This document shows positions 7,547-63,909 of a stretch of DNA of 64,000 nucleotides, in pieces. The notes beneath the pieces are model-generated. The model did no database searches and was not told the origin of the DNA. It saw nothing but the letters and a program-made list of their open reading frames with translations. A program made the translations under genes and the position numbers. The stretch's first letter is position 1. Every line of letters starts with the position of its first letter. Location of the stretch: assembly GCA_963575745.1 (NCBI GenBank), contig CAUYUJ010015726.1, positions 1,685,531-1,749,530 of the forward strand. Direction: 5' to 3'. The stretch comes from Prorocentrum cordatum. Its lineage: Eukaryota > Sar > Dinophyceae > Prorocentrales > Prorocentraceae.

Positions 7547-7563
7547 AATTGGGTCGGGAGTAC

Positions 7564-8146: not shown

Positions 8147-8159
8147 CATGCTTCTCAAT

Positions 8160-9330: not shown

Positions 9331-9486
9331 CTCCGGCTGAGGTGCGGCTGGACCAAATGTTTCCTGTCCTGGGGCCGGTGCCGCGCGGTGTCCCGCCGGT
9401 GTCCCGCCTCCGGCTGAGGCGCGGTCGGACCACATGTTTCCTGTCCGGGGGCCGGTGGCGCGCGGTGTCCCGCCGGTGTCCCGCCG
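9331..9486. repeat. two-copy 75-base direct repeat running into a GGTGTCCCG minisatellite
   Basis: A unit beginning CCTCCGGCTGAGG and containing ATGTTTCCTGTC occurs at about 9331-9405 and again at about 9408-9475, with a few substitutions. Both end in GGTGTCCCGCC words, and these are repeated several times just before the GAT array. Confidence 0.7.
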
Positions 9487-9548
9487 GTGTCCCGTCGGTG
9501 TCCCGATGATGATGATGACGATGATGACGATGATGATGTCGATGATGT

Positions 9549-9601
<53 letters not shown>

Positions 9602-45057: not shown

Positions 45058-45858
<801 letters not shown>

Positions 45859-46014
45859 GTCTCGGCTCGAGAGTGCCCTGCACTCAGACCGCAGCCGCGA
45901 CGCGAAGCGCCCCGCCTCGGAGCCAGTCTCCCAGGCCTCGCGAGACCGGAGGGGCCCCAGCAGGACCCTACTGATTCGCGTCACCTCTTCCCTCCCACCA
46001 GAGCGCCCGCCGCA

Positions 46015-48582
46015 ATGGCCCCCGCCAAGCCGGAGCGCCGTCGCTCTTCCAAGCAGCCGCCGAGCTCACGTCCTGCAGCTGAAGGATCCCTCCTCCAACG
46101 CAAACAGGACTGCATTGCAGCCTTCAAGCAAGCGGGGTCTGACCGCCCCACAGCCGCATACAACGGGCTCGCCGAGCTGAACGCGGACGAGCTGCAGGCC
46201 ACGTACGACATGCACAAGACCAACACCAAGAAGCTCGGCAGTGCCTTGATTCGCATGTGTGCCGCCAACCAGATCAGCTACACGCTGGATCACCACCAGC
46301 GCAGCAAGCCTAAGCGCAATGGTGGTGACACATCCTATCCACCAGCTGCGTCCGCACGTCTTCAGGCTGCGGACGCCAAATTTATTGCCTTGGACCCGGC
46401 CTTCTGGAAGGTCCCAGTCCTGGCCGAACCCACATCACTCGACGACGGCAAGACGTACAAGCCCAGCATCAGCCTCCACGACTACGAGAGTGGCGAGCGG
46501 CTGCTGCAGCACCATCTCGAGCAGGGTAAGCGTACCACGGGTCAGCTCGCGATCGCTGTCATGGGCCCAAAAAACGACAACTACGTCGGCACCGAGCTCG
46601 CCGTCCCCGTGCTGAAGCGCCACCCCAAGGCGCCCAATGTGGTTCACACGCACGTCCCCGTGACCGTGTACCAGCTGGGCACCAAGGAAGTCGCCTGCAC
46701 GGAAAAAGTAGCCGTCGCCACCATTGATCCTGCCGACCACGTATGCTGGATTCGGGTGACCATACATGAAACCGAAGCCATCGCCGCAGTCCCCTCCATG
46801 CATCAGGCCTTCGAGGATCAGTTTTCGGGAGGCGCCCCCGTGAACGGTGGTCCACGCGCCAAGGGTCCTTTCCGAGGGGATTCCGCTCCACAGGACAAGG
46901 CGCGCCAAAACCAAAAGCACAGGGAGTCTAAGAAAGACGCTCGCCGCCAGGAGCTCGACAGTCAGCTGCAGGACACCTTCAAGGCCCTTTTCCACGGCAA
47001 CTTTAAAGCCGTCACTATCCTCGAACCCTGCAAAAGTCTAGGCAGGTACGGATCTGGCGTCGGAAAAAGGTCCCTGGCTGCCACTTTCGGCGTCAGTCTT
47101 CAAGCAGTTGACAAGGTCTTGGCGGGTTCGGGGCAACTCGGCGCCACCTACGACCTCAGCAACGTAGGTGCGGACGAGCCCACGGCAGACAAGTACCAGA
47201 CCGTGTGGTTCCCCGAGGACCAGCCCATCACGATGGCAGAGGCGTTTCAGAAGTCGGTGGACTTCAAAGCCCTAGGAGTCGTCAGGCACGGCAAGTCAGG
47301 CTTATTGGGGATCCGTGTTGCACGTGGGTCAGACGCCGCCAAGGCCGCTGCCGTCAGCATCCGTGGCTGCGAAGCCACTCTCGCCAAGACGCGATACCGC
47401 ATCACGGGCATTGCGGCACGCCATGCCACGCTGACTCAGCTTGCCAAGACTCTCACGGGCCCGTCCGTCAAATGGGACTGTGAGGTCTACCACACCGCCT
47501 GGGACCCAGCCACTTCGGCGCAGTTTGCCTTAGTGCGCGCTCATCGTCCCCCACCCACATATACGGTACAGGTCGCAGGGTGCCCCATCCCGTGGAGCAT
47601 CACCGAGGCCCCGTTGGCTGAGGTCGTGCCGAAGAGGGACAACGTTACCATTGTCACCCCTACCACTATCACAGAGCCTGTGACGCCGCCCGCCCGTGGT
47701 GGCGGCTTCAGCCCCGCCACGGGCACACTCCTAACCAAAGCGGCCCAGAGCCCCTACCTCCACGACCTCATGACTGCCACGCCCAAAGGCAAGGGCGTCG
47801 CACCGCTCCCGATCCCCAAGGAGGAGCCTTTAGCCAAGCGCCACCGATCCTCCAGCGGGAAACGCGACGCCACGCCGCACGCAAGATCACACGGCGCTCC
47901 AGGCCGCAGCTCCTCTGCACCCCCGCACGGCACGGATGGAGCTGCCGAGCAGACGGCCGTCCAAGGACCAGGTGGGGACGGGCATGACCCGCAACCTGGC
48001 ACGGGGGCGGCCGAAGGTGGGGGCCACACGGAAGGGCACGCTGACGCAGCCGCCGAGGTACCAGGCGACGTCGAGATCCTCTCATCAGAGGATGAATTCA
48101 GCGTGGCATCGCGCGAACCGAACACCCTCGGCGAACGCTTCGCTACGGCCCCTAAACTGTCAGATGCCGCTACGACCCGCATCCAACACATGGAACAACA
48201 GCACGAGCTGCTTGCCAACACGGTGGACAACATGCAGGTCCAGCTTGCGGGCGTTCTCTCATCCCAGGCCACACTCACGGAGCACGTTACAGGCTTGGAA
48301 CGAGGGCTTGCCACCGTCGTCACTCAGCAACAGACGGCAACTACCGAAGCTGCTGCACTGCGCGGCGACATCCAGGCCCTCCTCGGGCACCTCACGGGGG
48401 GTACCATCCACCTGCCCCAGGTGGCCACCCTCGATACCAAAAAGGAGGAAGCTGCACCAGTTGCCGATCCCGTGGCTGTCTGCGGGTGGATCGACCAGCC
48501 AGGCCAGGTCACCCCAGGGACGGGGCCCCCAGGGGCTGACAAAGGCAAAGACAAAGGGCGGGCCACACAGGAACCCTATTGA
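46015..48582 (+). CDS. giant element ORF1, gag-like, C-terminal coiled coil
   Basis: This is an 855-residue protein from the ATG at 46,015, the first ATG after the CT tract (MAPAKPERRRSSKQPP, basic start). The frame stays open upstream only because of the Ser-Leu microsatellite. I recognise no named domain. Residues 1-60 are basic. Residues 100-560 look globular (YLGTKEVACTEKV-type beta-rich text, WKVPVLAEP, KYQTVWFPEDQ). Residues 560-700 are Pro/Gly/Ser-rich with an SSEDE acidic patch, and about 720-792 form a coiled coil (HMEQQHELLANTVDNMQVQL). It stands where LINEs carry the RNA-binding ORF1, so nucleic-acid binding and assembly are inferred. Two bulged-C hairpins lie in the ORF. The TGA at 48,580 is followed by a 171-base gap to the ATG of ORF2 in the same frame. 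Confidence 0.8.
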   Translation: MAPAKPERRRSSKQPPSSRPAAEGSLLQRKQDCIAAFKQAGSDRPTAAYNGLAELNADELQATYDMHKTNTKKLGSALIRMCAANQISYTLDHHQRSKPKRNGGDTSYPPAASARLQAADAKFIALDPAFWKVPVLAEPTSLDDGKTYKPSISLHDYESGERLLQHHLEQGKRTTGQLAIAVMGPKNDNYVGTELAVPVLKRHPKAPNVVHTHVPVTVYQLGTKEVACTEKVAVATIDPADHVCWIRVTIHETEAIAAVPSMHQAFEDQFSGGAPVNGGPRAKGPFRGDSAPQDKARQNQKHRESKKDARRQELDSQLQDTFKALFHGNFKAVTILEPCKSLGRYGSGVGKRSLAATFGVSLQAVDKVLAGSGQLGATYDLSNVGADEPTADKYQTVWFPEDQPITMAEAFQKSVDFKALGVVRHGKSGLLGIRVARGSDAAKAAAVSIRGCEATLAKTRYRITGIAARHATLTQLAKTLTGPSVKWDCEVYHTAWDPATSAQFALVRAHRPPPTYTVQVAGCPIPWSITEAPLAEVVPKRDNVTIVTPTTITEPVTPPARGGGFSPATGTLLTKAAQSPYLHDLMTATPKGKGVAPLPIPKEEPLAKRHRSSSGKRDATPHARSHGAPGRSSSAPPHGTDGAAEQTAVQGPGGDGHDPQPGTGAAEGGGHTEGHADAAAEVPGDVEILSSEDEFSVASREPNTLGERFATAPKLSDAATTRIQHMEQQHELLANTVDNMQVQLAGVLSSQATLTEHVTGLERGLATVVTQQQTATTEAAALRGDIQALLGHLTGGTIHLPQVATLDTKKEEAAPVADPVAVCGWIDQPGQVTPGTGPPGADKGKDKGRATQEPY
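46348..46376 (+). repeat. bulged-C hairpin 1 (ORF1)
   Basis: GCGTCCGCA pairs with TGCGGACGC (9 bp). The bulged C is at 46,357. GTC-GGC is the inner stem (one G-T), with loop TTCA at 46,361-46,364. Confidence 0.8.
47693..47723 (+). repeat. bulged-C hairpin 2 (ORF1)
   Basis: CCCGTGGTGG pairs with CCGCCACGGG (one G-T). The bulged C is at 47,703. Inner stem GGC-GCC, loop TTCA 47,707-47,710. Reads GGFSP. Confidence 0.85.
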
Positions 48583-48753
48583 AGGTGCCTCAGAGGGCCC
48601 GCCTCAGCCCTCCGAGGAAGCGCCTTCAGAGGCATCCCTTCTCACTTCTCGTCGTACCTCCTCCTTGCTATATCATGTCATTTTTGGCAGCAGCACGAGC
48701 AAGCTACCTGGTGTAGGGACACCTGTCATCTTGCTGTGGGTGTGTTTGTTGCA

Positions 48754-51700
48754 ATGTACATGAGCATGCAGGGGTACCTAAAGATGCGTGCTGACATGCA
48801 GCTTTTGGCTCATCGCTCGCGCCGCCTGCCAGGCCTCGCCATCATGTGGCGCTTTGCTTTCAGCCTGGCTCTCCCCTCGCTCGCTGGAGCACACCCGTCT
48901 TCAGGCGGTGCGCCCCAGCATGGAGGTGGGTTTCTTCTGCAGCACGTCGAACGTGCGTCCCTTTTCTACCTCTACGATGACAGCATCTACAAGTACGATC
49001 ACTGCACCATCTTGGACCCGATCGTCAACGGCACCGCTGCCGCGAGTCCGTGCAGTATTGGCCAGGCACACAGTGGCGGCTTCAGCCCCGCTGCTGTGCC
49101 CCGCTATTGCCCTACGGGTCCCACCACTCCCATGCGAGATAGGGGCGAACCCGAGGAAGACCCTGCTTTCTGGCACCTGATGATGATCCGCGCCCGGCTC
49201 ATACCGTGTGCTGCGGCGTGGGCACCAGGTGAGGATAACCAGGACATGTTCTGGGCATGGCTCGAGGACTGTGTCCCGTACATCCTGGCGACGCTCCATC
49301 TGCCACAGTACGATCACCTCTTCCTTGAGGCGTCCGAGGACACCACCGACGCCCTGCGTCATCGCACCGCGGTCGACATGTGCGAGGACATCTGGCACAG
49401 AGCGGGCCCCGACAGGCAGCGCATCAACCGCAACCTCACTCGAATCCAGAGCAGCCGCGAGTACGCCACCCGCTATTTCGGCCTCCTTCTGGAGTACCAG
49501 GGCGCTCGTGCCACGCTCGTTGGCCCTGAGGCTTTCATGGCACCTTTGCCGCCATACCTCTCACGGGCCCATGCTCGGCTGCCAAGAGGTCTCCCTCCAC
49601 CCGACCATGACGCCATGGCGTACCTCGCTGATGTTATCCTGCACCAACCGCCAGACATGCTGCCGCTCGTCGAGGCGGAGCTCGCTGCGGCGCCGACGGA
49701 CGGCACCGATCAGGCCGCAGAAGATCCCGTATCATGGCTGCTCCAGCACATCGCGGCCAGCGATATCGGCAATACATCCATGGACTCGTTCCACGCGTCG
49801 GAGGATAGCCAGGACGACATCGATATCCAGGATCGAGACGGCACGATACCATCAGGCGACTCGGCTCAGCGTGACCGCGACAGTGAGCCTCACTCTGGGC
49901 TCGCCCCGTGGCAACGCAGTGCGCCCCACACCTCAGATCAGGCCGACCCTTCTGCGCGGCCTAACGACGCTGAAGGCGTCACTGCCGCTGATGTGACTAG
50001 CCATTCCACTGCTTCGCCAGCTCATGCCAGGCCGTGCAGTGGCGGCTTCAGCCCCGCTGCACCACTGGCTAGACCTGGACATCCCCAGACCGCAGGAGGT
50101 GACAACGTGACTGACTCCAACCCCAGTGCCATCGACCACTGGCAGGCCGACATCGACAACGACCCCATCGATGATGAACACCCAGATGCCAGCGGTCCCC
50201 ACGAGCCCCAGCACAGCTCAGCGGCATCACGACATTGTGGCTGCCTCATCTGCCTCCTGGTGGCCACGTACGCCATCGCGATAGCAATGCCGTACAAGGA
50301 CCAGATCGATGGATACTTGCCGACCCCGAGCCGAGACCCCAGCTACCGACAACGACGACGACGCCAAGCGACCGCACCAGGCCCATCGGTGTCCACTATA
50401 TTCCGACGCAAAACGACATACTATGTCACGTCCACATTGAGGGCCACTCTCAAATGGACCAGCGACAAACTCAGAGATGGTGTCTCGGGCGGAGCCACTG
50501 CAGTCGGGAGCGGCTTCGGGGGCGTCCTTAAATGGGCCAGCGGCAAGCTAGGGGCCATAGCCACGGGTGGAGTTGTGTGTGGTCTTCTACTCGTCGGTGC
50601 CAAACTCCTTGCCCAGGGAGCTGTCGGACACGTAGGCGCCCGCATATGTGCGCGGGCCCTGGACTCATCCACTGCCCACTGGTGCCTCCGCTGTTGCCAA
50701 CCGAGCAGGAAGCCGAAGGACGAGGCCACACACAAAATGCCGTGCACGCTCGCCGACGAACACGACGACCAGCAGGTGCACGCACTCCGACATCCGCTGC
50801 TACAGGAACACTACGCCGCAGCTGTTGCCGCCGCAGTCGCCGACGTCACCACCGCCACCACCGCCGCCATCGCTGAAGTCACAGCCGCCGTATCGCGAGC
50901 CTCGTCTGTCACACCAAGATCGACCAGCCCGACGCCACGAGACGGCTCCAAGAACGGCACGACATTCGGTAACCTACCGACCAACGAGGATGCCACAGCA
51001 CACGGTAGCGACACCGAGCCAAGGGAAACGAGAGAACGCACCCATGGCAGCCCGTGGTCCATCTTCCGACATGCTGACGCTCGTGGTTCCTCCCCCGACG
51101 CGGACACCCAACCACCACGACGGCGAGCACGCTATGCATCACCTGACAGGCCCCAGGCGCCTTCAGGCCCTGGTACGCCTTACACTGCCCTCAAGCCACC
51201 GACACGCAACTCACGCAACACCATCCAGCGTGACCCAGCGGTCCCCGAGCCGCCGAAGAGCATACTTAACGCCCTGTACCAAAACGGCTTCGCGCTAGGG
51301 AACAGTGGCGTGTCCACTGAGGACATCAAAGACGCTCTACGACTCCACGACCACCCTCGATTCACTCACGACCCAACACTCCAAGTGCTGGGGCCGTGGA
51401 CGGACATCATGCAGAGGCCACCGAACCGCCTCACTTGGGTGCTGGAAGACTCGGGCGGCAACTCGGGCGAGACAATTTTCCCATACCTCACGTGGGACCT
51501 CCGTCAACCCACCACCGACGCGCCCACTGTTTTCTGGCATGGGACCCGCGGCGACCTTGCGGCCCGTCTTGCTGCCTGTGGAGGGCACCTCTTGCCAGGC
51601 CCCCGCCGTGAAACGAAGGGTCGAACTGGCACCAACGTTGGCCGCACGTACGTGAGCGTGCACCCTTCGCTGGCCGCGTGGTACGCGATACCGCCCCACC

Positions 51701-53382
51701 CGCCCTACAGTCTCGAAGACGACACCCTCGCGTGGGGACCCATCGCACTCTGGATGTGCGAAGCCACCCAACCACCGCGCGGGGAAAACAGGCACAACTA
51801 CGTGAAAGGGGAGGCTCACGGAGCGCGCCTCATTTACCCTCGGGTCCTGAGCCTCCTCATCCGCATGGACTGGTGTGCCCCCACAGAAGCTGCTTCCAGG
51901 TGCCGTGCCCTTCCACACGCCTATGGCATGGGTGACTGCGCGCACGCCCTCCACATTGCTGGCTACGATCATCCAGATCTCCGTGAGGCGGCTGAAGCTC
52001 ACGACCAGGAAGCTAGCAACAGGCGCAGATCAACCATCGCGGCAGCATGGCCACCACCGCAGGCGCTGTACTCGCCAGAAGCGGCGCGAGCATGGGCCAA
52101 ACAGCACTACGACACGGAAGCAGCCACCAGGGACGACCCTAATCAGCCTCGACCACGCGTCTCGCTCCACATACTCCAGCTGGACCCGAAACCACTCATC
52201 GACCTGGTGTACACGGGCTTGCAAGCTGTCCCCGTGCGGGGGCACCCTGACGCACACGGGTCGCGCCCCAGCGGCTCCAGCCCTGGGGCCGCGTCGGGCC
52301 CACCACGCACGCACAAGTCAGGCACAGCCTTAGCCCACAGTCCAGACCCCTCATCGACGTCATCTGGAGTCGACGAACGCCGTACGCCATCCCTCATCAG
52401 CGCGGCCGCCGCCCTCGCCCGAGGCCGCGCCCGTGCGCGACGATCTGCCTCTCGCTCGTCACGACAGAGCGACGGGAACTCCACCTCCGACAACAGCGGC
52501 ATCGAGACGTGGGAGCACATTGTGACGGAGGAGGAGCCGACTGCCTACCACGTCCTCGCCTACCACGTGCGTGATGTGCGGTCCCGTGTCAACGCCCCTG
52601 GCATCGAGGTCTGGCTCGACCCTGGTGATCACCACGATGGCGCCTACTTACCGTGGGGGACGACAGTCATGGGCTACCGCGTCATTGACCCTACAGTGGA
52701 CGGGCGTGACGGCTGGGTCATCCTCCATCATGATCACGGCGACACCACTACTAAGCTCTGGGCACCGACCCAAGTCCACGTTAAGGGGGACGACTCCTGG
52801 CGCACCGTCATGGTACCAGCGGATATGGGGCCCCAGTGGATCAGGTGCCATGCCGAGGACGCACGCCTCCCCGCCGAGGTAGTCCGCACTACAGGCCAAT
52901 CCTGGTTTGCTGACGTCTGGCCCTTGTGGGATCGCCCGAGACCCCACCCAGACGACCCAGGCACAAACGAGCATGCGCTACCGCCTTTACCAGGACGCTG
53001 GTCTTGCCTACAGTGTCGATTCCAATGCTGCCAATATTGCGCGGCTCGCCGCAACACACAGCTTGGCACCTCGGGCCAACCAACGTGCCCAGACTGCGGC
53101 CGCAGCGGACTGCGTACACTTATGGACTGGTCCACGGACTACTCGTGCAACAGTTGGACGTGTGCATACAGCACCAATAAGAGGGACTCCGACACATGCT
53201 GCCTGTCCAGCAGGTGTCCCCACCCCCCAGGCCACACAACCAGCTCGACGTCCGTGCCACAGGGATGCCGCCGCACATCCTTGCCCGCCAATTCGGCAAC
53301 GCGCCAGCCCTCCACGACCTCAAGGAACCCCCCCGAGCGCCTTCAGGCCCCGGGGGAGAACCTCCACAACCAGGGCAAGTAG
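48754..53382 (+). CDS. giant element ORF2, ART-like domain and zinc ribbon
   Basis: About 1542 residues from the ATG at 48,754. Further ATGs follow at 48,760, 48,766 and 48,784. An internal Met at 48,844 would start with a signal-peptide-like stretch (MWRFAFSLALPSLAGA). Hydrophobic segments near residues 495-512 (CLICLLVATYAIAIAM) and 605-630 (VVCGLLLVGAKLLAQG) could be membrane spans. Residues 830-1040 resemble an ADP-ribosyltransferase (PARP-like) fold: FWHGTR (His about 929), GRTYVSVHPSLAAWYA (Tyr about 966), ALWMCEA and IYPRVLSLLI. The usual catalytic Glu position looks like Ala, so activity is doubtful. Residues 1410-1470 hold a Cys-rich ribbon (CLQCRFQCCQYC and CPDCGRSG). The last 187 bases overlap ORF3. 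Assignment of the ART-like fold is by motif pattern only. Confidence 0.75.
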   Translation: MYMSMQGYLKMRADMQLLAHRSRRLPGLAIMWRFAFSLALPSLAGAHPSSGGAPQHGGGFLLQHVERASLFYLYDDSIYKYDHCTILDPIVNGTAAASPCSIGQAHSGGFSPAAVPRYCPTGPTTPMRDRGEPEEDPAFWHLMMIRARLIPCAAAWAPGEDNQDMFWAWLEDCVPYILATLHLPQYDHLFLEASEDTTDALRHRTAVDMCEDIWHRAGPDRQRINRNLTRIQSSREYATRYFGLLLEYQGARATLVGPEAFMAPLPPYLSRAHARLPRGLPPPDHDAMAYLADVILHQPPDMLPLVEAELAAAPTDGTDQAAEDPVSWLLQHIAASDIGNTSMDSFHASEDSQDDIDIQDRDGTIPSGDSAQRDRDSEPHSGLAPWQRSAPHTSDQADPSARPNDAEGVTAADVTSHSTASPAHARPCSGGFSPAAPLARPGHPQTAGGDNVTDSNPSAIDHWQADIDNDPIDDEHPDASGPHEPQHSSAASRHCGCLICLLVATYAIAIAMPYKDQIDGYLPTPSRDPSYRQRRRRQATAPGPSVSTIFRRKTTYYVTSTLRATLKWTSDKLRDGVSGGATAVGSGFGGVLKWASGKLGAIATGGVVCGLLLVGAKLLAQGAVGHVGARICARALDSSTAHWCLRCCQPSRKPKDEATHKMPCTLADEHDDQQVHALRHPLLQEHYAAAVAAAVADVTTATTAAIAEVTAAVSRASSVTPRSTSPTPRDGSKNGTTFGNLPTNEDATAHGSDTEPRETRERTHGSPWSIFRHADARGSSPDADTQPPRRRARYASPDRPQAPSGPGTPYTALKPPTRNSRNTIQRDPAVPEPPKSILNALYQNGFALGNSGVSTEDIKDALRLHDHPRFTHDPTLQVLGPWTDIMQRPPNRLTWVLEDSGGNSGETIFPYLTWDLRQPTTDAPTVFWHGTRGDLAARLAACGGHLLPGPRRETKGRTGTNVGRTYVSVHPSLAAWYAIPPHPPYSLEDDTLAWGPIALWMCEATQPPRGENRHNYVKGEAHGARLIYPRVLSLLIRMDWCAPTEAASRCRALPHAYGMGDCAHALHIAGYDHPDLREAAEAHDQEASNRRRSTIAAAWPPPQALYSPEAARAWAKQHYDTEAATRDDPNQPRPRVSLHILQLDPKPLIDLVYTGLQAVPVRGHPDAHGSRPSGSSPGAASGPPRTHKSGTALAHSPDPSSTSSGVDERRTPSLISAAAALARGRARARRSASRSSRQSDGNSTSDNSGIETWEHIVTEEEPTAYHVLAYHVRDVRSRVNAPGIEVWLDPGDHHDGAYLPWGTTVMGYRVIDPTVDGRDGWVILHHDHGDTTTKLWAPTQVHVKGDDSWRTVMVPADMGPQWIRCHAEDARLPAEVVRTTGQSWFADVWPLWDRPRPHPDDPGTNEHALPPLPGRWSCLQCRFQCCQYCAARRNTQLGTSGQPTCPDCGRSGLRTLMDWSTDYSCNSWTCAYSTNKRDSDTCCLSSRCPHPPGHTTSSTSVPQGCRRTSLPANSATRQPSTTSRNPPERLQAPGENLHNQGK
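48886..48916 (+). repeat. bulged-C hairpin 3 (ORF2)
   Basis: CACC pairs with GGTG and extends outward with two A-C mismatches. The bulged C is at 48,896. Inner GTC-GGC, loop TTCA 48,900-48,903. Confidence 0.65.
49065..49100 (+). repeat. bulged-C hairpin 4 (ORF2)
   Basis: GGCACA-TGTGCC and CAG-CTG stems, then T-G and GG-CC. The bulged C is at 49,077. Inner GGC-GCC, loop TTCA 49,081-49,084. Reads GGFSP. Confidence 0.85.
50027..50068 (+). repeat. bulged-C hairpin 5 (ORF2)
   Basis: GTGCAG pairs with CTGCAC, then T-G and GG-CC. The bulged C is at 50,043. Inner GGC-GCC, loop TTCA 50,047-50,050. Outer CCAG-CTGG beyond a small internal loop. Confidence 0.85.
51153..51173 (+). repeat. bulged-C hairpin 6 (ORF2)
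   Basis: CCAGG pairs with CCTGG. The bulged C is at 51,158. The inner stem is GCC-GGC, the swapped orientation. Loop TTCA 51,162-51,165. Confidence 0.8.
52262..52293 (+). repeat. bulged-C hairpin 7 (ORF2)
   Basis: CCCCAG pairs with CTGGGG, outer CGCG-CGCG. The bulged C is at 52,272. Inner GGC-GCC, loop TCCA 52,276-52,279. Confidence 0.8.
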
Positions 53383-56300
53383 GCTACCAGGGCCAATGGT
53401 ACCTCCCACCACAGCCGCGGCGCGTCCCCAGGCAGGGATTGCCTGACGGCACAACGCGGCCACCTGGATTCACAGGAACGGGGATGCCCGAAGAACCTTC
53501 CCCCGACCAACCGCTTTGGAGGGAAGGCTATGTGCTCTTCAGCCCCCATCAGGCCCTCAAGGAGGAACTCACCTTCAACAAGACGGTCCGCCGACCCTTC
53601 TCCCTAGCCATTACCAACATGTACAGGGATCGTGTCACGGTCAGGACCGTCTGCGAGTTGATCGCCGAGCGCACCCACATGACCCGCACCCGCTGGCGAG
53701 ATGTGGTACTGTACTGGGACGCCGAGGGTGGTCCTGGGCCTCAAGCTCTCGACTACGATATGCGACTCTGTGACGCCATGGTGAGCCGTGCCACGACCGA
53801 AGCTGAGCTAAACCACGACCGCAGCAACCGTGGTAGTTTCTGCCTCTATGGACCAGCGCACCAGCGGGCCATCAACATTACGGCGATCTCAGAGCCGCAG
53901 AACATCGACTACACGGAGCATGTGCGACGATACTCACCCGTAGGGGGGACCTACCCTGACCACGCCTTCGAGCACGTCTATCGGGGCTGGCAGCGGCCCG
54001 ACGTGCCCACCATCCTCCCCGACACCCGTCCCCTCTCGAGAGCCGACTGGCAGCGTCACCAACAGCACCAGCAGCGCATCCAGCAGCGGGACCAACGTGA
54101 CGCAGGACAGCAGGGCACACCACGCTACCGCTCCCCTGCGCGAGTCCCGACAGGCGGTAACACGGCCTACGACGGGGTTGCCGACTACCACCGTGGTCCC
54201 ATAGGTGCCATGCCTGCGGCTGCTGGAGCAGCCGCCTCCAGCTACGGCCAAGCCCCCAACGCCAGGGTTCACCCAGCGGCCATCGGCTACTCGCGTGCAC
54301 CCCTACATGCCCTAAGGGCCACCTCGCCAGTGCCAGGGTCCACGCGCGCCTGGGGCCTTTACTCAGGCCGACATGAGGGCCCCTCCAGCAACCAGCCTGC
54401 AGTGATAACCCCTGCGGCTTCAGCCCAGGGGGCTGCAACAAACCGTGGCAGGGCTGGGCGCCCCGAAGGATGGCGCGATGCGAACGTGCGCGCTTGGCAA
54501 CCGCGCCAGCACACGCCCCCGCCAAACGTAGCTGCAGCACTGCGCCCTGCCCAGGCCAAACCTGCCCCACCTGTGCGGGAGAGGCAGCCGCTCACCCCGC
54601 TCGTCCTCACGCGCATCCAGGCGCATCGCAGCGCCTCCCCGAGGCACAGCGAGGGAAGCGCCCACCACGTCAGCCCCCGCCCAGACGCGGCCGACCCCGA
54701 CCAGGCCACAGCCACGGCGGAAGGCGGCACAAGCGCCTCTCGCCAGCCCAGCCCATCACCCTGCGCGGCGCCGATCCGATCCCCGAGCAGGGCGGATTCT
54801 GAGCGCGCTAATGCCCAGGCGACTTCGCCACGCGACCGTCACACGGGCGGGCGCGTCCCGCGCAGCAGGACCTGCAGCCGCCACAGTTCACGCAAGGCCC
54901 CAGGGAGCTCCACGAGCTCGCCGCCTCGCGAGACTCAGGCCGATGCCCGACCCCCCGAAGTGGTGCCACGCTTCGGAGCCAGCGTCATCGACCCTAGCCA
55001 GGTCGACCTCGAGCCGACGCCGTCCACGGACCACGAGCCGCAGCTGCCCACCCGCGTGATCGTTCCCATCGACGAGGCGCCAACCTTCGACCCGTTCAAG
55101 AACAAGTACCGTGTCAAGAACCTTGTGGCGGGTTTTGGCGGGGGCTCACCGCTCTCACCTCAGAGTCGGGGCGGTGCCCCCGCCACCTCGGCTGCTGCCG
55201 CGGCAGCTGCGGCCCCGCGGGGAATCAGCCCTGTCCGCAACGTGGGCCTCACGGCAGCGGGCATGGACGAGGCCCAGCGTCAGGCCTCCGATCGTGCTGC
55301 TGGAGCCGTTCCACCAGATGCTGCTCATCAAGACACTGACGGGGCGGGCGTGTCACCGCAGAAGGGACCAGCGGTGGCGCGTGCGCAGTACATGCGCGTG
55401 CGTTGTGCCGCCGCCGCGCCTGGCCGCCGCCGCTGTCTCGTTTTTGTCTTTGTGTTCGGCAGGATGGATCGAGGAGTCGCCTCCCTCTCCCACTGCTGCC
55501 GTCTCACTTCTCCTCCCCTCGTCCCCTATAGTACAGGAGTGAGGAGGAATTTTCGTGACATTTTTACTAATATTTATGAACCCCCCCTGGCGCAGTGCCG
55601 ACCGTGTCCCGCCTATATGGTTGGCCTGACGGCGGCTTCAGCCCCGATCAAGCTAGCCCATAGTAACGCCATGAGCTCCTACTGTGGCCAAGCCTCCTAC
55701 TGGGGCGAGGGTCAAGCTGACCTTCACCGTGCGGGGCGCGCAAACCCCAGTTCCACCGATGGAGACGGGCCAGGTCGCTCCATACACCTCGTCAGCCTTA
55801 ACATCACCAGTCTCTCAGCGAACTGGCCAACCATCACCGCCCTTGGTGTCGACCACAACGCCGCTGTCATAGCACTGCAGGAGACCCGACATGCCAAGCC
55901 GACTAGGCAAGCCATCGCTACCAGCGCCGCCAATCCTCTCCACGGTGGATACCACGCCAGTCTTGGGCCTGACCTTGATCTGGCGCGAGCCCAGCGCAGA
56001 GCTGCCCACGGCGGCACTGATCACACCGTTGTGGGCAACACTGGCGCCTCGGGAGGGGTCGCCATTCTCTCTAAGGATGCCATCGTCGACTCCACTGTCG
56101 ACGACAATGCGCCCTGTATCGCCGCCCTCAAGGCCAAGAAAAGATGGCATGAGGTCTTTCTCCCACTCTGCACTCAACACCGCCGTAGGCGGCGACGAAA
56201 TAACCATGGGCCCGCGGGGATCTACATAGCGAGCCTTTACGGGATTGCTGGAGGAGACAGCACAGCTCTCTTTCGGCTCGCTGACTGTGCCGCCGCTAGG

Positions 56301-59300
56301 GTCGGCTCAGCACCCTACTTCATCTGCATGGACGCCAACACGAACATTGACGACAATCCACACCTTCTGCACATGTTGCAGCACGGATGGTCCAACGTCG
56401 CTGAGGGCACACCAGACCACACCATGCACACCTATGGCAATATCCCTGATTGGGACCGCGTCACCAAGTGCCCCCGCACTTCGCGCATCGATTATATCAT
56501 TGCCAACCAGGCGGCGCGATCCCTTGTCACCGACTTCTGCTACCTTCGCGACTTGCCTGCGAAGTCTCACGTTGGCCTGCAGGTCACGCTTGACCTCAGT
56601 CGCCTCGACCATACGGCCCGACGTCTTCTTGCCCCTACGCCCTACCCGCCCGACGATGGAGTTCATGAGGGGCACGAGCTGCAAGCACTTGGGACCCTCA
56701 TCGCTGGGCGGTACCAGGACCGCATGGAGCAGGCCGACGCACGAGACGACGTGGAGCGCATGTTCACCCTGGCTAACGAGGCCAGTCATGAGTACCATCT
56801 CACCCGTCTACGCGATCTGCCACCTCCACCGCCCCACCAACCAAAAAAGAAGCCCCCCACCATGCACGGGCTCACGCCTACGTTCGAGGATCGACCGGTT
56901 GTCCCCCGCGCGTTCCCCACCTACGGAGCTTCCACGATTCACATGAACCGACTGCGCAAGCTCCATCGGCAACTCTGCGAGCTCCGTTTCATCGGACAGC
57001 ACCACCATCTAGATTGCCGTGCTATCCCGCCGTACCTCGCGCAGCGCATCGACTGCACGTGGGCCGCGGCCCGCCTCTTATGCCACAAGCTGCGCCCCAC
57101 GGTTCTCCTGGAATTCCCCGAGGCCTGGGCCCCAGACGAGCCAGTGCCGCACGGGGAGCACCTTGACGTTTTGATCCAACATCTCGACTTAGAGCTGGCG
57201 CGACGCGCGAACCGTGCCAAGGCGGAACGCATCAGGATATGGGCCGAGGGCGTCCGTGAGCCAAGCGGGCGAAAGGCGGCCATATACGCACGAGCTGCTG
57301 ATAGCTCGCCCACGGCGTATCTCCGCACGCCTACCACTCCTGACGATACGCAACTCCACTGCGACACCAACGCCTTCAAACCTGACGAAGCTTGCACGGA
57401 CGACAGCGACGCTGACACCGAAGCTGGCGGCTTCAGCCCCGGCGACGGTAGTTCGCCCGACACGGACAGCGACGAAGACCACACCCGTGAACCACCACCT
57501 GCGCAAGTCCCCGACATCCTCCCTGCCAACGCCATTGTTGCTAACATCAAGGACATGCTGAAGCTCATGGTCGACACCTGGGAGCCCATCTTGGGCAGGT
57601 ACCGCGCACGTGCGGGACATGATGCCGAAGCCATGCCGACGTGGGCCGACTTCTACGACGAGTACCGACAGGAGCTGCCTACGCCATCACCAGCTACCCC
57701 TTTCCACCTCACCGACGACCAACTCATCCACTTCATTCGCACCCGTTCACCGAGACGCGCGGGGGGTCTGGACGGTTGGACTACTAAGGAGGCAAAGGAG
57801 CTTCCCGACGACATTCTTCGCCTCTTCGCCAGCGTTCTACGAGCTATGCAACGCACTGGCACCATCCCAGAACCCCTCCTCCACGTCCCAAACCCGTGCC
57901 TCCGAAAAGGCCGAGGCGAACTCCCAACGGACCAACGACTTCTCTCGGTGCTTTCCGTTTGGATGTACGCGTGGGAAGCACCAGCTTACCGCAGCCTCAC
58001 GGACTGGCGGAAAGGATGGACCCACGCCACGAGTTTTGGCGCTGTTCCCAAAGCTACCATTGGGGACGTCAGCACTTCTCTCGCCCTTCGCATCGAACAC
58101 GCCAGAGCCCTTCTCCTTCCCTTGGCTGGAGCTGCCCTGGACCGTCAGAAGTGTTTCGACTATCTCATCACGGACATATGCCTTAACCTCGCGCTTCACG
58201 CGGGGTGTCCCCAAGACATCGTTACTGTCCGCAGAAACTTCTACAGGCGCCACAAACGTTACATCCGCATGAACGGTGCGTACTCTAAGGAACTGGCCAG
58301 GACAAACGGTCACCTCCAGGGAAGCTCTTGGTCCCTGGACGACATTAAGCTGCTCATGTGCGTCTGGACCAAGAGACAGCATCGTTACGTGCCGCGGTCA
58401 CTCAGCACTACTTTTGTTGACGACAGCAACTCCACTACCCACACCGCGCCCGAGTTGCAGAAATCTCTTGATGAAACCGCCAAGTTTGATCGATTTTCTG
58501 GTCAACGCATTCATCCTGGAAAAGTGGCGGGGTGGGCGCTTACTGACGAGCTTCACACCGCCGTTACCCAGCTCACCTTGGCGGAACGGCCCTTACGCGT
58601 GGTCGACTCCTTCAAGCTCGTCGGAAGTTACATCAACGCCGAGGCAGCGCCGGCTCCAGCCGCGCTCAACCTCACGGCCACCGCTGACGCCCGTGTTCGC
58701 AGGGCGACTAGTCGCCTGCCGCGTATTGGCAAGCTCCCATCTCCGATGCGTATTAAGGCGCGGCACGCCCGCTCCCTTGCTGCCAGCGTCTGTACCACGG
58801 GCACTGACATCCAAGCCCCATCAGGCCCCGTCAAAACTGCCTACAACCATGCCCTTAAGGCGGCTATCCGCCCCAAGGGAAACAGGTGGGTCGAGTTTTG
58901 GACTCTCATGGCCGTGTGCGTCCCAGGGCACGCCCTGGAGATTGACGCCATTATGCAGCGTGAAGTCTTCCTGTGCCTGCGGCGACAGGTCAACCGCGAC
59001 GCCACTCTCTGCGGCCTCGTCAGGGATCTCCAACACCATGTCCAGACCCTTTTTGGCGGAGGACCTGTTGGACGACTTGTTCAGACGCTTCAGCAGCTCC
59101 GTTGGACTTGGCCCACATTTGGCACCATGTACGACGACTGGGGCTGTCAGATCAGTTGGCTGAACCTTCCCCAAAACGCCTTCCTTCACATGCTGCGCGC
59201 CTCGCAACGCAGAGCCTTTCTGAGAAAAATCAAGCCACGGCGTCATGACCTTGGACACCTAGCTTCGGTCAGACAGGGCCTCGACCTTTTCGCCAGCACG

Positions 59301-59834
59301 TGGCTCGCCCGCACCAAAGGAGCTGCCAAATGCAACGCATGGCAGCTGGCGCTCCTCTTAAACTACCTGTCGGGCGGGGACCACACCCAACAGCGACGTT
59401 CTCGATCAAATACGTCCGCTGATCCCAGCCCTATTTGCCGTTACTGTGATGAGGAAGAGGAAACTCAGGAGCACACTGTGCGTGACTGCAAGTGCTGGGC
59501 CCGTGAAAGAGTCCCTCTCACCACCCTCATCAGTGACGAGCAGTGGGCCCGTCTTCCTCCGCACACAAGACATTGCGGGCTCTTCGATGAGGACCCAGCC
59601 CTCCTCGATCTGCAAGCCGACCTCGCGAGGGACCCGCTACCTCAACCCATACCGCGGCCCCCGCCTGAGGGAGATCCTGCGGCTTCAGCCCAGGACTCCT
59701 ACACCACTACCTTGACCACGACACTGGTTGGACATGGGTCTACGCTGCCACGGACGGTGCATGCACCAACCAAGCCATCCCTTTGCTTGCAAGAGCGGGC
59801 TACGGCGTCTACTACGGCATCGACCACCGCATGA
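53196..59834 (+). CDS. giant element ORF3: APE endonuclease, reverse transcriptase, CCHC
   Basis: A 2212-residue frame, open from 53,181, with an ATG at 53,196 inside ORF2. It may be reached by reinitiation or by a -1 shift in the overlap. Residues 1-850 are Pro/Arg/Gln-rich. About 862-1135 is an endonuclease/exonuclease/phosphatase fold (ALQETRH, GGVAILSK, FICMDANTN, IDYIIA, SHVGLQ). About 1440-1820 is a reverse transcriptase: GGLDGWT (1522), ALDRQKCFDYL (motif A), GHLQGSSWS (motif B) and TFVDDSN (motif C, intact DD, about 1740). A CX2CX8HX4C knuckle (CRYCDEEEETQEH...C) is near residue 2081. Nicking and target-primed reverse transcription are inferred from family. A T-rich, UTR-like stretch (55,430-55,620) lies just before the endonuclease although the frame stays open, hinting at an old fusion. 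Confidence 0.92.
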   Translation: MLPVQQVSPPPRPHNQLDVRATGMPPHILARQFGNAPALHDLKEPPRAPSGPGGEPPQPGQVGYQGQWYLPPQPRRVPRQGLPDGTTRPPGFTGTGMPEEPSPDQPLWREGYVLFSPHQALKEELTFNKTVRRPFSLAITNMYRDRVTVRTVCELIAERTHMTRTRWRDVVLYWDAEGGPGPQALDYDMRLCDAMVSRATTEAELNHDRSNRGSFCLYGPAHQRAINITAISEPQNIDYTEHVRRYSPVGGTYPDHAFEHVYRGWQRPDVPTILPDTRPLSRADWQRHQQHQQRIQQRDQRDAGQQGTPRYRSPARVPTGGNTAYDGVADYHRGPIGAMPAAAGAAASSYGQAPNARVHPAAIGYSRAPLHALRATSPVPGSTRAWGLYSGRHEGPSSNQPAVITPAASAQGAATNRGRAGRPEGWRDANVRAWQPRQHTPPPNVAAALRPAQAKPAPPVRERQPLTPLVLTRIQAHRSASPRHSEGSAHHVSPRPDAADPDQATATAEGGTSASRQPSPSPCAAPIRSPSRADSERANAQATSPRDRHTGGRVPRSRTCSRHSSRKAPGSSTSSPPRETQADARPPEVVPRFGASVIDPSQVDLEPTPSTDHEPQLPTRVIVPIDEAPTFDPFKNKYRVKNLVAGFGGGSPLSPQSRGGAPATSAAAAAAAAPRGISPVRNVGLTAAGMDEAQRQASDRAAGAVPPDAAHQDTDGAGVSPQKGPAVARAQYMRVRCAAAAPGRRRCLVFVFVFGRMDRGVASLSHCCRLTSPPLVPYSTGVRRNFRDIFTNIYEPPLAQCRPCPAYMVGLTAASAPIKLAHSNAMSSYCGQASYWGEGQADLHRAGRANPSSTDGDGPGRSIHLVSLNITSLSANWPTITALGVDHNAAVIALQETRHAKPTRQAIATSAANPLHGGYHASLGPDLDLARAQRRAAHGGTDHTVVGNTGASGGVAILSKDAIVDSTVDDNAPCIAALKAKKRWHEVFLPLCTQHRRRRRRNNHGPAGIYIASLYGIAGGDSTALFRLADCAAARVGSAPYFICMDANTNIDDNPHLLHMLQHGWSNVAEGTPDHTMHTYGNIPDWDRVTKCPRTSRIDYIIANQAARSLVTDFCYLRDLPAKSHVGLQVTLDLSRLDHTARRLLAPTPYPPDDGVHEGHELQALGTLIAGRYQDRMEQADARDDVERMFTLANEASHEYHLTRLRDLPPPPPHQPKKKPPTMHGLTPTFEDRPVVPRAFPTYGASTIHMNRLRKLHRQLCELRFIGQHHHLDCRAIPPYLAQRIDCTWAAARLLCHKLRPTVLLEFPEAWAPDEPVPHGEHLDVLIQHLDLELARRANRAKAERIRIWAEGVREPSGRKAAIYARAADSSPTAYLRTPTTPDDTQLHCDTNAFKPDEACTDDSDADTEAGGFSPGDGSSPDTDSDEDHTREPPPAQVPDILPANAIVANIKDMLKLMVDTWEPILGRYRARAGHDAEAMPTWADFYDEYRQELPTPSPATPFHLTDDQLIHFIRTRSPRRAGGLDGWTTKEAKELPDDILRLFASVLRAMQRTGTIPEPLLHVPNPCLRKGRGELPTDQRLLSVLSVWMYAWEAPAYRSLTDWRKGWTHATSFGAVPKATIGDVSTSLALRIEHARALLLPLAGAALDRQKCFDYLITDICLNLALHAGCPQDIVTVRRNFYRRHKRYIRMNGAYSKELARTNGHLQGSSWSLDDIKLLMCVWTKRQHRYVPRSLSTTFVDDSNSTTHTAPELQKSLDETAKFDRFSGQRIHPGKVAGWALTDELHTAVTQLTLAERPLRVVDSFKLVGSYINAEAAPAPAALNLTATADARVRRATSRLPRIGKLPSPMRIKARHARSLAASVCTTGTDIQAPSGPVKTAYNHALKAAIRPKGNRWVEFWTLMAVCVPGHALEIDAIMQREVFLCLRRQVNRDATLCGLVRDLQHHVQTLFGGGPVGRLVQTLQQLRWTWPTFGTMYDDWGCQISWLNLPQNAFLHMLRASQRRAFLRKIKPRRHDLGHLASVRQGLDLFASTWLARTKGAAKCNAWQLALLLNYLSGGDHTQQRRSRSNTSADPSPICRYCDEEEETQEHTVRDCKCWARERVPLTTLISDEQWARLPPHTRHCGLFDEDPALLDLQADLARDPLPQPIPRPPPEGDPAASAQDSYTTTLTTTLVGHGSTLPRTVHAPTKPSLCLQERATASTTASTTA
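53328..53358 (+). promoter_or_regulatory. candidate -1 frameshift site, ORF2 to ORF3
   Basis: The seven C at 53,328-53,334 read aaC CCC CCC in the ORF2 frame, a perfect X_XXY_YYZ heptamer made of C. It lies in the ORF2/ORF3 overlap, 46 bases before the ORF2 stop. A slip of -1 enters the open ORF3 frame. A bulged-C hairpin uses the following bases (loop at 53,342-53,345). The fit is imperfect because the outer left arm overlaps the C run, leaving no classical spacer. Reinitiation at the ATG 53,196 is an alternative. Confidence 0.4.
53330..53356 (+). repeat. bulged-C hairpin 8 (ORF2/ORF3 overlap)
   Basis: CCCCC pairs with GGGGG, then G-C, A-C mismatch, G-C. The bulged C is at 53,338. Inner GCC-GGC, loop TTCA 53,342-53,345. 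Confidence 0.75.
54409..54431 (+). repeat. bulged-C hairpin 9 (ORF3)
   Basis: CCCCTG pairs with CAGGGG. The bulged C is at 54,415. Inner GGC-GCC, loop TTCA 54,419-54,422. Read in a different codon phase (AASA). Confidence 0.85.
55627..55650 (+). repeat. bulged-C hairpin 10 (ORF3)
   Basis: TGA-TCA and CGG-CCG with one bulged A on the right. The bulged C is at 55,633. Inner GGC-GCC, loop TTCA 55,637-55,640. Confidence 0.65.
57417..57449 (+). repeat. bulged-C hairpin 11 (ORF3)
   Basis: GCTGG pairs with CCGGC (one G-T), outer ACCG-CGGT across a 2/2 internal loop. The bulged C is at 57,428. Inner GGC-GCC, loop TTCA 57,432-57,435. Confidence 0.85.
58646..58666 (+). repeat. bulged-C hairpin 12 (ORF3)
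   Basis: AGCGC pairs with GCGCT. The bulged C is at 58,651. Inner GGC-GCC, loop TCCA 58,655-58,658. Confidence 0.8.
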
Positions 59835-61498
59835 ACTACAGTGCGCGCGTTCACGGCATCACGCAGAACGCACAGCTTGCGGAGACCCTCGCCATTGTCC
59901 ACCTCACGGCATGTGCTGAACGGCCCGTACACGTCTTCGTGGACAACCAGGCGGTGGTCGACGGCTTCCAAAGGATCATCGACGGACACTCACCTCCGCA
60001 GGGCACGCACGTGGAGTTCTGGGAAAAGGTCCACCGATGTGTCATGGCCAAGCCAAACATGTTCCGCGTAGAGAAAGTCGCTAGCCACCAGGGCGACACG
60101 GGCATCGACCTCGGGCTCATCGGGCCCATCGCGGAGGAGTTCAATCGTCAGGCTGACGCCCTCGCCACAGCGGCGGCACGTACTCATAACCTTCCAGACG
60201 ACATCGTTGAAGCTGCCAAAGCACGACACCGCCAAGCGACCGTGCTCCATGGAGTCGCCGTTGCCATCTACGAGCGGAGACATCGTACACTTCCTCTCCC
60301 ACACCGCAGGGCTGGGTTCACTGCTGCAGAACTAAACAAAATGGAACCAAATCCCCTGCTGTCTGACCAGGCTCCACCCGCGGCTGGACCAGACATCCCA
60401 CAAAACCCCGACGAGCTCTGGGCCGAGGCCCAACGGGTGTTATTCGACGAACAGGAGGACGACCCGTTCGGCTTTGGTGGAGGTTTGGACTTCCTGGGCG
60501 ACGAGTCAGCCAGCGCCAACCCTGCCCCGGCGGGCACCCGCACGGCGCCCCCGACTCCGCCATTGAGTGCGTCAGCCCACCCACATGACAACGCCGTTCC
60601 TTTTCAAGACGCTGATGAGCAGGACGATGACCTTTTCAGCCTCGGTGGGGGATCGGACGCTTTGGACGACGGACCAGCCAACGAAAACCCCGCCCCGTCG
60701 GGAAACCTCGCAAACCCTACTGCGACGCCGTCCCCAAGAGCGTTAACGCCCACATACGACGATATCGGTCACCGCCAAGACGCCGACCACGACCCGAGTG
60801 CCCCCCGAGGATTGGGTGGCATTGAGGACGCACCGCCGACACCACACGCTGCCGACCATGCCGCCCCACCGAGTCACCAACCCTCTACGCGACCGACCTC
60901 AGCGGCCTTGCACGGCATCACGACTGGTCCCACCGCGCATACCACTCCGCCTCCCCATCGTCAGCGACCCGCGGGGGCGGCTTCAGCCCCCCCGCAGGGT
61001 ACTAAACCAGACAGGCCCTCGTGCCCCACCCACGCTTCCTCCGTTGCTGAGCGAGAGGAAGCGGCTCCCCTGACCTCTCGGGGCGCGGCCCTAGCGGCTC
61101 CAGCCCTGGGGTCGCGCCGGCCCCTCCAGTCACCTTTTAACGGTGACGGACGTCAGCGTTCAGGGTCCCGCACGCCGCTAGCCCACCTGGACAGGCGTAC
61201 CGAGGACCTCGCCTCTGTCTCGAGATCCTCGGCGGATGTCACTGAGCAGCCACCTCTCACCGACCGTGAAACCGAGCTGTCACAGGCTATGGCTGCCCTT
61301 CAGCAGAGGTGCTTAGCTCTCGCCGCGGACCTCGCCGCTGCCCAAGCTCGTCAAGGTCCTCTACTCCAGCGCCTCCACAGCGCTGGGCGAGCCTTCGCCG
61401 AGCTGCTCACGACCTCGCCCGATGGTGTCGTGCCGTCACTCAACATCCAAGCTATGTTGTCATCGTTCCGCGGCGCTCCACCTGGTGCCCCGCGCTAA
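59669..61498 (+). CDS. giant element ORF4: RNase H plus coiled-coil tail
   Basis: The frame opens at 59,669 (the previous stop is at 59,666) and is -1 relative to ORF3. The first ATG is 59,783. RNase H motifs are ATDGACTNQ (first Asp, encoded at about 59,750), AQLAETLAIVHL (Glu), VHVFVDNQAVVDGF (Asp), VASHQGD and NRQADALATAAA (last Asp). All four acidic residues are present, but the first lies upstream of the ATG. A complete RNase H therefore needs a ribosomal shift out of ORF3 between 59,669 and 59,834, or another non-AUG start. The tail (residues 190-571) has two similar DDPFGFGGGLDFLGDE/DDDLFSLGGGSDALDD units, Pro-rich linkers and a coiled coil (QAMAALQQRCLALAADLAAA). RNase H follows the CCHC knuckle, the reverse of the I-element order. 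Confidence 0.85.
   Translation, partial: GRSCGFSPGLLHHYLDHDTGWTWVYAATDGACTNQAIPLLARAGYGVYYGIDHRMNYSARVHGITQNAQLAETLAIVHLTACAERPVHVFVDNQAVVDGFQRIIDGHSPPQGTHVEFWEKVHRCVMAKPNMFRVEKVASHQGDTGIDLGLIGPIAEEFNRQADALATAAARTHNLPDDIVEAAKARHRQATVLHGVAVAIYERRHRTLPLPHRRAGFTAAELNKMEPNPLLSDQAPPAAGPDIPQNPDELWAEAQRVLFDEQEDDPFGFGGGLDFLGDESASANPAPAGTRTAPPTPPLSASAHPHDNAVPFQDADEQDDDLFSLGGGSDALDDGPANENPAPSGNLANPTATPSPRALTPTYDDIGHRQDADHDPSAPRGLGGIEDAPPTPHAADHAAPPSHQPSTRPTSAALHGITTGPTAHTTPPPHRQRPAGAASAPPQGTKPDRPSCPTHASSVAEREEAAPLTSRGAALAAPALGSRRPLQSPFNGDGRQRSGSRTPLAHLDRRTEDLASVSRSSADVTEQPPLTDRETELSQAMAALQQRCLALAADLAAAQARQGPLLQRLHSAGRAFAELLTTSPDGVVPSLNIQAMLSSFRGAPPGAPR
59670..59699 (+). repeat. bulged-C hairpin 13 (start of the ORF3/ORF4 overlap)
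   Basis: GGAG-CTCC and TCCTG-CAGGA with a bulged A between. The bulged C is at 59,680. Inner GGC-GCC, loop TTCA 59,684-59,687. It begins one base after the ORF4 frame opens. Confidence 0.85.
60967..61000 (+). repeat. bulged-C hairpin 14 (ORF4)
   Basis: GCGGGGG pairs with CCCCCGC, outer ACCC-GGGT with one bulged A. The bulged C is at 60,978. Inner GGC-GCC, loop TTCA 60,982-60,985. Confidence 0.85.
61082..61118 (+). repeat. bulged-C hairpin 15 (ORF4)
   Basis: CCCTAG pairs with CTGGGG (one G-T), then G-T, then GGCGCG-CGCGCC. The bulged C is at 61,095. Inner GGC-GCC, loop TCCA 61,099-61,102. It is the longest stem of the set. Confidence 0.85.
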
Positions 61499-61874
61499 TC
61501 TCCTCCTTTCTGCCTGCCCGTGTGTACGTGTGGCTCCGCGTCCACGGTGTCAGGGCGTGGGGGCGGGGGGTGCCCCGTCACTGCGCGCCGCTTAGCGGCC
61601 AAGCGCCCAACTGGCGGTCCGCCAAGCCGCCTAGCCACGTGCCAGCACGTCGCCTTTCTTGTTGGGGCCTTTTACCTCACGCGGTCTGTCAGGTGAGATC
61701 TTCATCGTCTGTCCGCCGTCTGTAGCGTCAGTCGCACTGCGCCGGGGGAGGGGGTTTTGTAGCCCGCCCTCGTATCTTAAGGCTGCACCGCCGCAAATAG
61801 TGCTTGCGAGTTGTCGCACCGCAGTGCGCCTCGCGGACGGACCCTGGTCCGCCTACTTGTCCGATCTCTCTTTC
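61499..61874 (+). other. 3' untranslated region of the giant element
   Basis: No ORF continues. CGCCGCTTAGCGGC (61,588-61,601) and GGCGGTCCGCC (61,612-61,622) are local inverted repeats with loops unlike the bulged-C set. No polyadenylation-like A tract is visible. Confidence 0.5.
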
Positions 61875-62388
<514 letters not shown>

Positions 62389-63721: not shown

Positions 63722-63909
63722 TGAGAGAGTGTGAGTGTGAGCTTAACTTATCTTATCTTATCTTGAAATCTATTCTTATCATATCTTGTGCTATCTGATC
63801 TTATCTTGTAGTATCTTATATTGTCTTGTCTTATCTGGTGATTATCATTGGGAGGAGGGAGGCGCGAGCGGGAGGAAGAAGGAGGAGGAGGAGTGGGAGG
63901 CGTCAGAGT
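63722..63909 (+). repeat. TATCT-rich tract and purine spacer
   Basis: Imperfect CTTAT/TATCT units at 63,745-63,840, then GGAGGAGG-type purines up to the second 91-base repeat. Confidence 0.85.

Follow-up and report, generated by a model that had tools for sequence, protein, structure and literature searches.

It has long been asked how the protein of a long interspersed nuclear element (LINE) locates and organises the RNA that encodes it, a behaviour termed cis preference. L1 ORF1p is an RNA-binding protein with a coiled coil and an RNA recognition motif (RRM) and has little sequence preference. Outside LINEs, the operator of phage MS2 consists of a lower stem, one unpaired base on the 5' side, a short upper stem and a tetraloop; in the iron-responsive element, an unpaired C precedes a short upper stem on the 5' strand; and Rickettsia palindromic elements and palindromes of the REP (repetitive extragenic palindromic) and MITE (miniature inverted-repeat transposable element) types are palindromic units repeated in the genome, some of them inside genes. 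Here we describe 15 hairpins in a LINE-like retroelement of the dinoflagellate Prorocentrum cordatum, which occupies about 16 kb of a 64,000-nt stretch of contig CAUYUJ010015726.1 (positions 1,685,531 to 1,749,530, forward strand; referred to as the window). Their build is like that of the MS2 operator. For ZfL2, a LINE of the stringent type, a stem-loop in the 3' tail is reported to be recognised by the protein region between the endonuclease (EN) and the reverse transcriptase (RT) (PMC4176376).

As with the MS2 TR operator and the dispersed packaging signals of single-stranded RNA (ssRNA) phages, several similar sites are dispersed on one RNA, and the 21-nt unit compares with an MS2 stem-loop of 19 nt (PMC4751978). 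Unlike those of MS2, the hairpins lie in a LINE-like element, have an unpaired C, an upper stem of 3 bp and a UYCA loop (Y, pyrimidine), are regularly spaced at kilobase distances and are known here from sequence alone. We regard the likeness to phage operator and packaging hairpins as an architectural resemblance and not as membership. The likeness to ZfL2 would be that a hairpin in LINE RNA is recognised by a protein of the LINE, the stem generally and the loop specifically (PMC4176376); in contrast to the 3'-tail stem-loop, 15 hairpins are distributed across the coding region, the last (61090-61110) inside ORF4, one of four open reading frames (ORFs). Compared to the iron-responsive element, loop and upper-stem length differ, and a search of 45800-61950 against Rfam gave 0 matches with E-values up to 1. 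In contrast to the repeated palindromes, the hairpins show no sign of insertion, fixed positions and one orientation. An earlier note on this DNA knew of no LINE hairpin of this design; likewise, in the literature searched (most subscription papers outside it) we found hairpins of this kind neither for LINEs nor for dinoflagellates, and by term search neither 'hairpin' nor 'stem-loop' is present in the dinoflagellate genomics review PMC11453091.

Design and covariation of the hairpins

The earlier note had placed 15 hairpins in 46348..61118, each with a TTCA or TCCA loop, an unpaired C and an inner stem of 3 bp, and all of them are present (Table 1). The common form of 21 nt consists of a 5-bp outer stem, the unpaired C, G-N-C, the loop, G-N-C and the second outer strand. 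The loop is TTCA in 12 hairpins and TCCA in 3, and the unpaired C occurs in 15/15. Inner pairs 1 and 3 are invariant, and pair 2 yields the three forms already named in the note, GGC-GCC, GCC-GGC and GTC-GGC (11, 2 and 2 hairpins, respectively). Sequence constraint reaches only about 5 outer pairs. The further claim that the outer stem differs in every copy holds for most hairpins; however, the stems of hairpins 4 (49081) and 5 (50047) are identical and those of hairpins 7 (52276) and 15 (61099) are similar. Local RNA folding predicted inner-pair probabilities of at least 0.90 in 15/15 hairpins and of at least 0.90 for most outer pairs; predicted outer pairs were weak or absent in hairpins 3 (48900), 8 (53342), 10 (55637) and 12 (58655).

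Table 1. Hairpins and open reading frames of the element (window positions). S, strict scan; M, covariance model.
Feature	Position	Strand	Loop	Inner stem	Found by	Remarks
Hairpin 1	46352..46372	+	TTCA	GTC-GGC	S, M	
Hairpin 2	47698..47718	+	TTCA	GGC-GCC	S, M	
Hairpin 3	48891..48911	+	TTCA	GTC-GGC	S, M	
Hairpin 4	49072..49092	+	TTCA	GGC-GCC	S, M	
Hairpin 5	50038..50058	+	TTCA	GGC-GCC	S, M	
Hairpin 6	51153..51173	+	TTCA	GCC-GGC	S, M	
Hairpin 7	52267..52287	+	TCCA	GGC-GCC	S, M	
Hairpin 8	53333..53353	+	TTCA	GCC-GGC	M	A.C at second outer pair; ORF2/ORF3 overlap
Hairpin 9	54410..54430	+	TTCA	GGC-GCC	S, M	
Hairpin 10	55628..55648	+	TTCA	GGC-GCC	M	Three outer pairs, then 3' bulge
Hairpin 11	57423..57443	+	TTCA	GGC-GCC	S, M	
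Hairpin 12	58646..58666	+	TCCA	GGC-GCC	S, M	
Hairpin 13	59675..59695	+	TTCA	GGC-GCC	S, M	
Hairpin 14	60973..60993	+	TTCA	GGC-GCC	S, M	
Hairpin 15	61090..61110	+	TCCA	GGC-GCC	S, M	Inside ORF4
ORF1	46015..48582	+				855 aa from first ATG in line with relatives; candidate hairpin reader
ORF2	48583..53382	+				Open frame after ORF1 stop, 1599 aa
ORF3	53181..59834	+				Endonuclease-like and RT-like domains, both below Pfam cut-offs
ORF4	59669..61498	+				RNase H domain; split from ORF3 by frameshift private to window copy

A strict scan of the whole 64 kb on both strands (C bulge, 3-bp inner stem, TYCA loop, at least 4 outer pairs) returned 13 hairpins on the plus strand, every one in the element, and 0 on the minus strand; hairpins 8 and 10 with their weaker outer stems bring this number to 15. 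Shuffled sequence did not yield equal numbers: with at least 5 outer pairs, 12 hairpins were observed compared to a mean of 0.02 (maximum 1) in 100 dinucleotide shuffles. With the same geometry but any loop and any bulge, 13 hairpins occurred on the minus strand of the element and 39 and 37 per 45 kb in the rest of the window, compared to 3.95 in element shuffles. Because real sequence contains more hairpins of this general kind than its shuffled versions do, the shuffles give too low an estimate of the general background. However, none of these background hairpins has a common loop, and shared loop and bulge set the 15 apart. A covariance model built from the 15 scores all of them at 26.2-37.7 bits, by construction (hairpin 8, 33.8 bits; hairpin 10, 29.5 bits); the next match in the window reached 18.9 bits, and no match occurred in the window downstream of 61113. 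Outside the element, two weak matches on the minus strand, 42011-42041 (18.9 bits) and 34454-34481 (17.9 bits), are likely due to chance. In IMG/VR, an 18-nt core retrieved four stretches (L001-L004) scoring 25.5, 27.4, 30.0 and 19.3 bits, for which the search pattern itself was the selection criterion. Of these, L002 and L003 passed the strict scan, and L001 and L004 failed; no relatives were confirmed in viral contigs.

In an ungapped alignment of the 15 hairpins, 86.7% of cells pair, compared to 58.8% in shuffles, and 9 of 11 pairs vary on both sides. Covariation of the stems, as noted before, was borne out by a score of 0.640 versus 0.149 in shuffles, the former reached by 0/500 shuffles; sliding the partner by 1-3 bases lowered the score to 0.07-0.21. 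Because the 15 copies are different sites of one element, this test addresses design and not descent. Covariation by descent is only weakly tested because the unit hardly changes: across copies of the element, and counting pairs beyond the 5-bp unit too, one-sided changes of Watson-Crick pairs fell into 14 types that give a mismatch and 7 types that give G.T, and there was a single double change with full compensation. The third outer pair of hairpin 11 occurs across copies as T-A, T-G, C-G and one broken C.A, and the eighth outer pair of hairpin 2, beyond the constrained unit, as C-G and G-C with intermediates.

The 120 pairs formed by the inner 3 and outer 5 positions comprise 109 Watson-Crick pairs, 8 G.T, 2 A.C and 1 other. 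Since a G.T in the sense strand corresponds to an A.C on the other strand, the excess of G.T over A.C favours sense RNA, although the numbers are small. This excess and the restriction to the sense strand argue against sites at the DNA level, that is, hairpins or cruciforms in element DNA or cDNA that would be bound for replication, chromatin or integration. Only DNA was observed and conservation alone cannot separate RNA from DNA; on balance we consider DNA-level sites improbable.

Nucleotide-level selection across copies

The element belongs to a large family: the genome searched (4.13 Gb, 21,875 contigs) contains 1664 matches to a degenerate RT motif (DRQKCFDY). A distant ORF1 motif was found at 0 places. 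Close copies were examined at 10 further loci, where most aligned pieces share 92-96% identity with the window. Of the rows aligned over hairpins, 126/126 retain the hairpin, and the 11-nt core is unchanged in 125 of them, the remaining one having an altered unpaired C; the core varied at 1/165 sites compared to 10.3% of sites outside hairpins. Rows are absent where alignments break, as happens next to an insertion in three loci that lack a row for hairpin 4; in one of these (L025), hairpin 4 was found separately. Among three divergent copies (C216, C290 and C93; pieces mostly 82-89% identical, C93 unaligned past 59455), the aligned parts retain the hairpins at corresponding positions. Some decay is seen, namely a TTTA loop at hairpin 2 (L034, L038), TGTA at hairpin 6 (L034) and changes at hairpin 12 (L033). 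Here, 22/840 positions differ inside the 21-nt unit, compared to 12-22% in bins just outside. Where aligned, the 15 sites are thus common to close and divergent copies. A fourth divergent copy outside these counts (C147, L039) passed the strict scan at 3/4 sites covered.

Fourfold-degenerate sites were counted where the first two codon bases are unchanged. In the close copies 1/675 differ inside hairpins versus 2631/23534 outside, and in the divergent copies 2/198 versus 1997/7041; these cells are not independent, as overlapping alignment pieces were counted separately and copies share ancestry. Synonymous-codon shuffles retained a mean of 0.14 hairpins (maximum 2) with at least 4 outer pairs, compared to 12 observed in the pieces counted. 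The loop starts at codon position 1 in 5 hairpins, at position 2 in 1 and at position 3 in 8 (hairpin 8 in the ORF overlap being left out). As all three frames are used and fourfold sites are near-invariant, nucleotides are conserved and not peptides. A repeated short peptide under protein-level selection, folding by chance, would fit the finding that GGFSP is encoded by 4/15 hairpins. However, the near-invariance of fourfold sites already contradicts it, the peptides encoded in the three frames are unrelated, and codon shuffles lose the hairpins, leaving this explanation hardly credible. We conclude that the hairpins are real and under strong nucleotide-level selection, and a function at the RNA level is strongly supported.

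A sixteenth hairpin with the inner stem GTC-GAC, 37 nt from hairpin 5, is present in two copies (L036:4615-4641 and L038:5688-5714). It aligns gap-free to degenerate sequence in the window copy, which lacks it, indicating that hairpins can arise or vanish by point changes. A mobile micro-hairpin inserted repeatedly into the element, one of the readings suggested in the earlier note, would account for similar cores in 15 places, and the outer stems shared by hairpins 4 and 5 or nearly shared by hairpins 7 and 15 could be old duplications. However, no empty site was found among the 126 rows of 10 loci, a single orientation occurs, most outer stems differ, and the only hairpin gained or lost is the gap-free one. 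We therefore consider repeated insertion very improbable.

At the protein level, inspection by eye revealed peptides able to encode hairpins 1 and 2 in the relatives P0004-P0006 (60-86% identical in ORF1), where GGSSP in P0005 would correspond to a TCCA loop, as judged from protein only; P0007 and P0008 (42-43%) lack a hairpin-2-compatible peptide. In the linker containing hairpin 11, GGFSP is kept in P0002, likewise by eye, and is absent from P0001. In P0003 (74% identical) the same linker reads APSGP by eye, the peptide encoded by the GCC-TTCA-GGC hairpin at 51162.

Spacing and possible recognition by a protein

The gaps between successive hairpins are 1346, 1193, 181, 966, 1115, 1114, 1066, 1077, 1218, 1795, 1223, 1029, 1298 and 117 nt. 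Eleven of the 14 lie within 900-1400 nt (0.97-1.35 kb), which 0/200,000 uniform random placements matched, this statistic having been picked after the gaps were seen. A gap coefficient of variation as low as that observed occurred in 56/200,000 placements and a maximal gap as low in 711/200,000. The regular spacing is a new observation of this analysis.

Taken together, we favour the explanation that the 15 hairpins act in cis as RNA recognition sites of the giant retroelement, read by a packaging-type protein, and give it a probability of roughly 0.5. The evidence fits the suggestion in the earlier note of an RNA or DNA structure recognised by a protein, with RNA favoured over DNA. What the sequence shows directly are the hairpins with their covariation, code-independent conservation, strand and spacing; we infer the binding protein, its role in a ribonucleoprotein (RNP) or in packaging, and RNA rather than DNA as the ligand. 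The full-length sense RNA would show a 21-nt hairpin every ~1.1-1.2 kb, recognised through its UYCA loop, its unpaired C and the pairs next to them; for the outer 5 bp, the main requirement would be pairing. Specific contacts to loop and bulge combined with a sequence-tolerant stem would let hairpins sit in any reading frame. The binder would most likely be encoded by the element. ORF1p is the candidate; around residues 455-538 it may adopt an RRM-like fold, and a long C-terminal helix (717-794) is predicted. The predicted order, an RRM-like part before a long helix, differs from that in L1 ORF1p. The possible RRM-like fold is at most suggestive of hairpin binding; by sequence, ORF1 gave weak matches to known structures, two of three being vimentin.

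The element RNA would be translated and then bound by the element protein at hairpins along its whole length. Many sites per RNA would give avidity and select full-length cognate RNA, and binding may both select and compact the long RNA into an RNP for reverse transcription, as dispersed packaging signals do in phages; particle formation and the need for spacing would be parts of this model. More tentatively, the periodic array, one docking hairpin per ~1.1-1.2 kb of a 16-kb RNA, might serve as a ruler for RNP or particle assembly, a non-viral packaging-signal system laid over coding frames. As expected of packaging signals, the sequence specifies multiple stem-loops along one RNA that have a recognition motif in common while their stems are free to vary, and selection on the hairpins is independent of coding. 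If true, dispersed packaging signals known from ssRNA viruses would extend to non-LTR (long terminal repeat) retroelements. In this one retroelement, numerous almost identical sites lie evenly spaced within coding sequence and are under strict selection at the nucleotide level, and the 21-nt unit is a defined ligand with which the binding protein could be isolated.

Two caveats apply. Protein linkers may contribute to the spacing; the relative P0001 shows gaps or lacks similarity at the positions of hairpins 11 (57432) and 12 (58655). In addition, the exact 21-mer of hairpin 13 occurs 1577 times in the genome, compared to 1342 occurrences of a control 21-mer 60 nt upstream, which had been chosen because 8/9 rows had it in common; this is a small contrast at a single site. 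An 18-nt stretch of hairpin 2 occurs 955 times.

The main rival is a host factor acting on the RNA in nuclear export, stability or protection from premature 3' processing, with one site per ~kb to leave no long stretch of the RNA uncovered. Such sites would agree with nucleotide-level conservation and with spacing that is regular across all ORFs, and a protective factor of limited reach would explain the even spacing well. However, the hairpin-13 21-mer occurs mostly within the family: the RT motif lies as far away as expected at 90 of 96 listed places (4/100 dropped as lying beyond the RT list); conversely, 90 of the first 100 RT-motif places listed have the 21-mer 1.3-1.9 kb downstream. Moreover, a core variant unused by the window element is not enriched genome-wide, with 130 places versus 306 for a backward control, although this concerns one variant only and no direct survey of host genes was made. 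We consider host-factor sites rather unlikely, yet the strongest competitor to recognition by an element protein.

Reading frames and surroundings of the element

The element extends from ~45.86 to 61.87 kb of the window. In ORF3, the endonuclease-like domain (PF03372, 22.0 bits; cut-off 24.5) and the RT-like domain (RVT_1, 13.8 bits; cut-off 29.6) score below their cut-offs, whereas the RNase H domain of ORF4 (PF00075) reaches 31.9 bits, above the cut-off of 25.8. The search of known structures by sequence with protein A2 gave RNase H only; this domain occurs in some LINE clades. Hairpin 13 was considered as a frameshift or bypass signal and rejected: the other aligned copies (7 rows) differ by one base just downstream of it, so that the split between ORF3 and ORF4 near 59.7 kb is private to the window copy. 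ORF2 gave no Pfam or PDB match by sequence; by eye, hydrophobic stretches resembling signal or membrane segments occur close to its start and in the middle. Five copies (L025, L029, L031, L036, L038) carry ~126 to ~815 bp of extra ORF2 sequence between hairpins 3 and 4, near window position 49053.

Long CT repeats (45060-45857 and 61865-62377) lie at both ends of the element, and CT-rich stretches likewise match at the ends of several other copies. The flanking repeats suggest insertion into or beside CT microsatellites. In a single possible example of 5' truncation, the C147 copy L039 matches 57556-61309, the adjoining L040 is without an upstream match, and the 3' side ends at the contig end. 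At L021, two copies are arranged head to tail, L021:1-1155 being the end of one (98.6% to 60751-61905) and the next starting in 1115-10000. A 152/304-bp satellite array (62442-63725) follows the window element and also two other copies (L014, L016).
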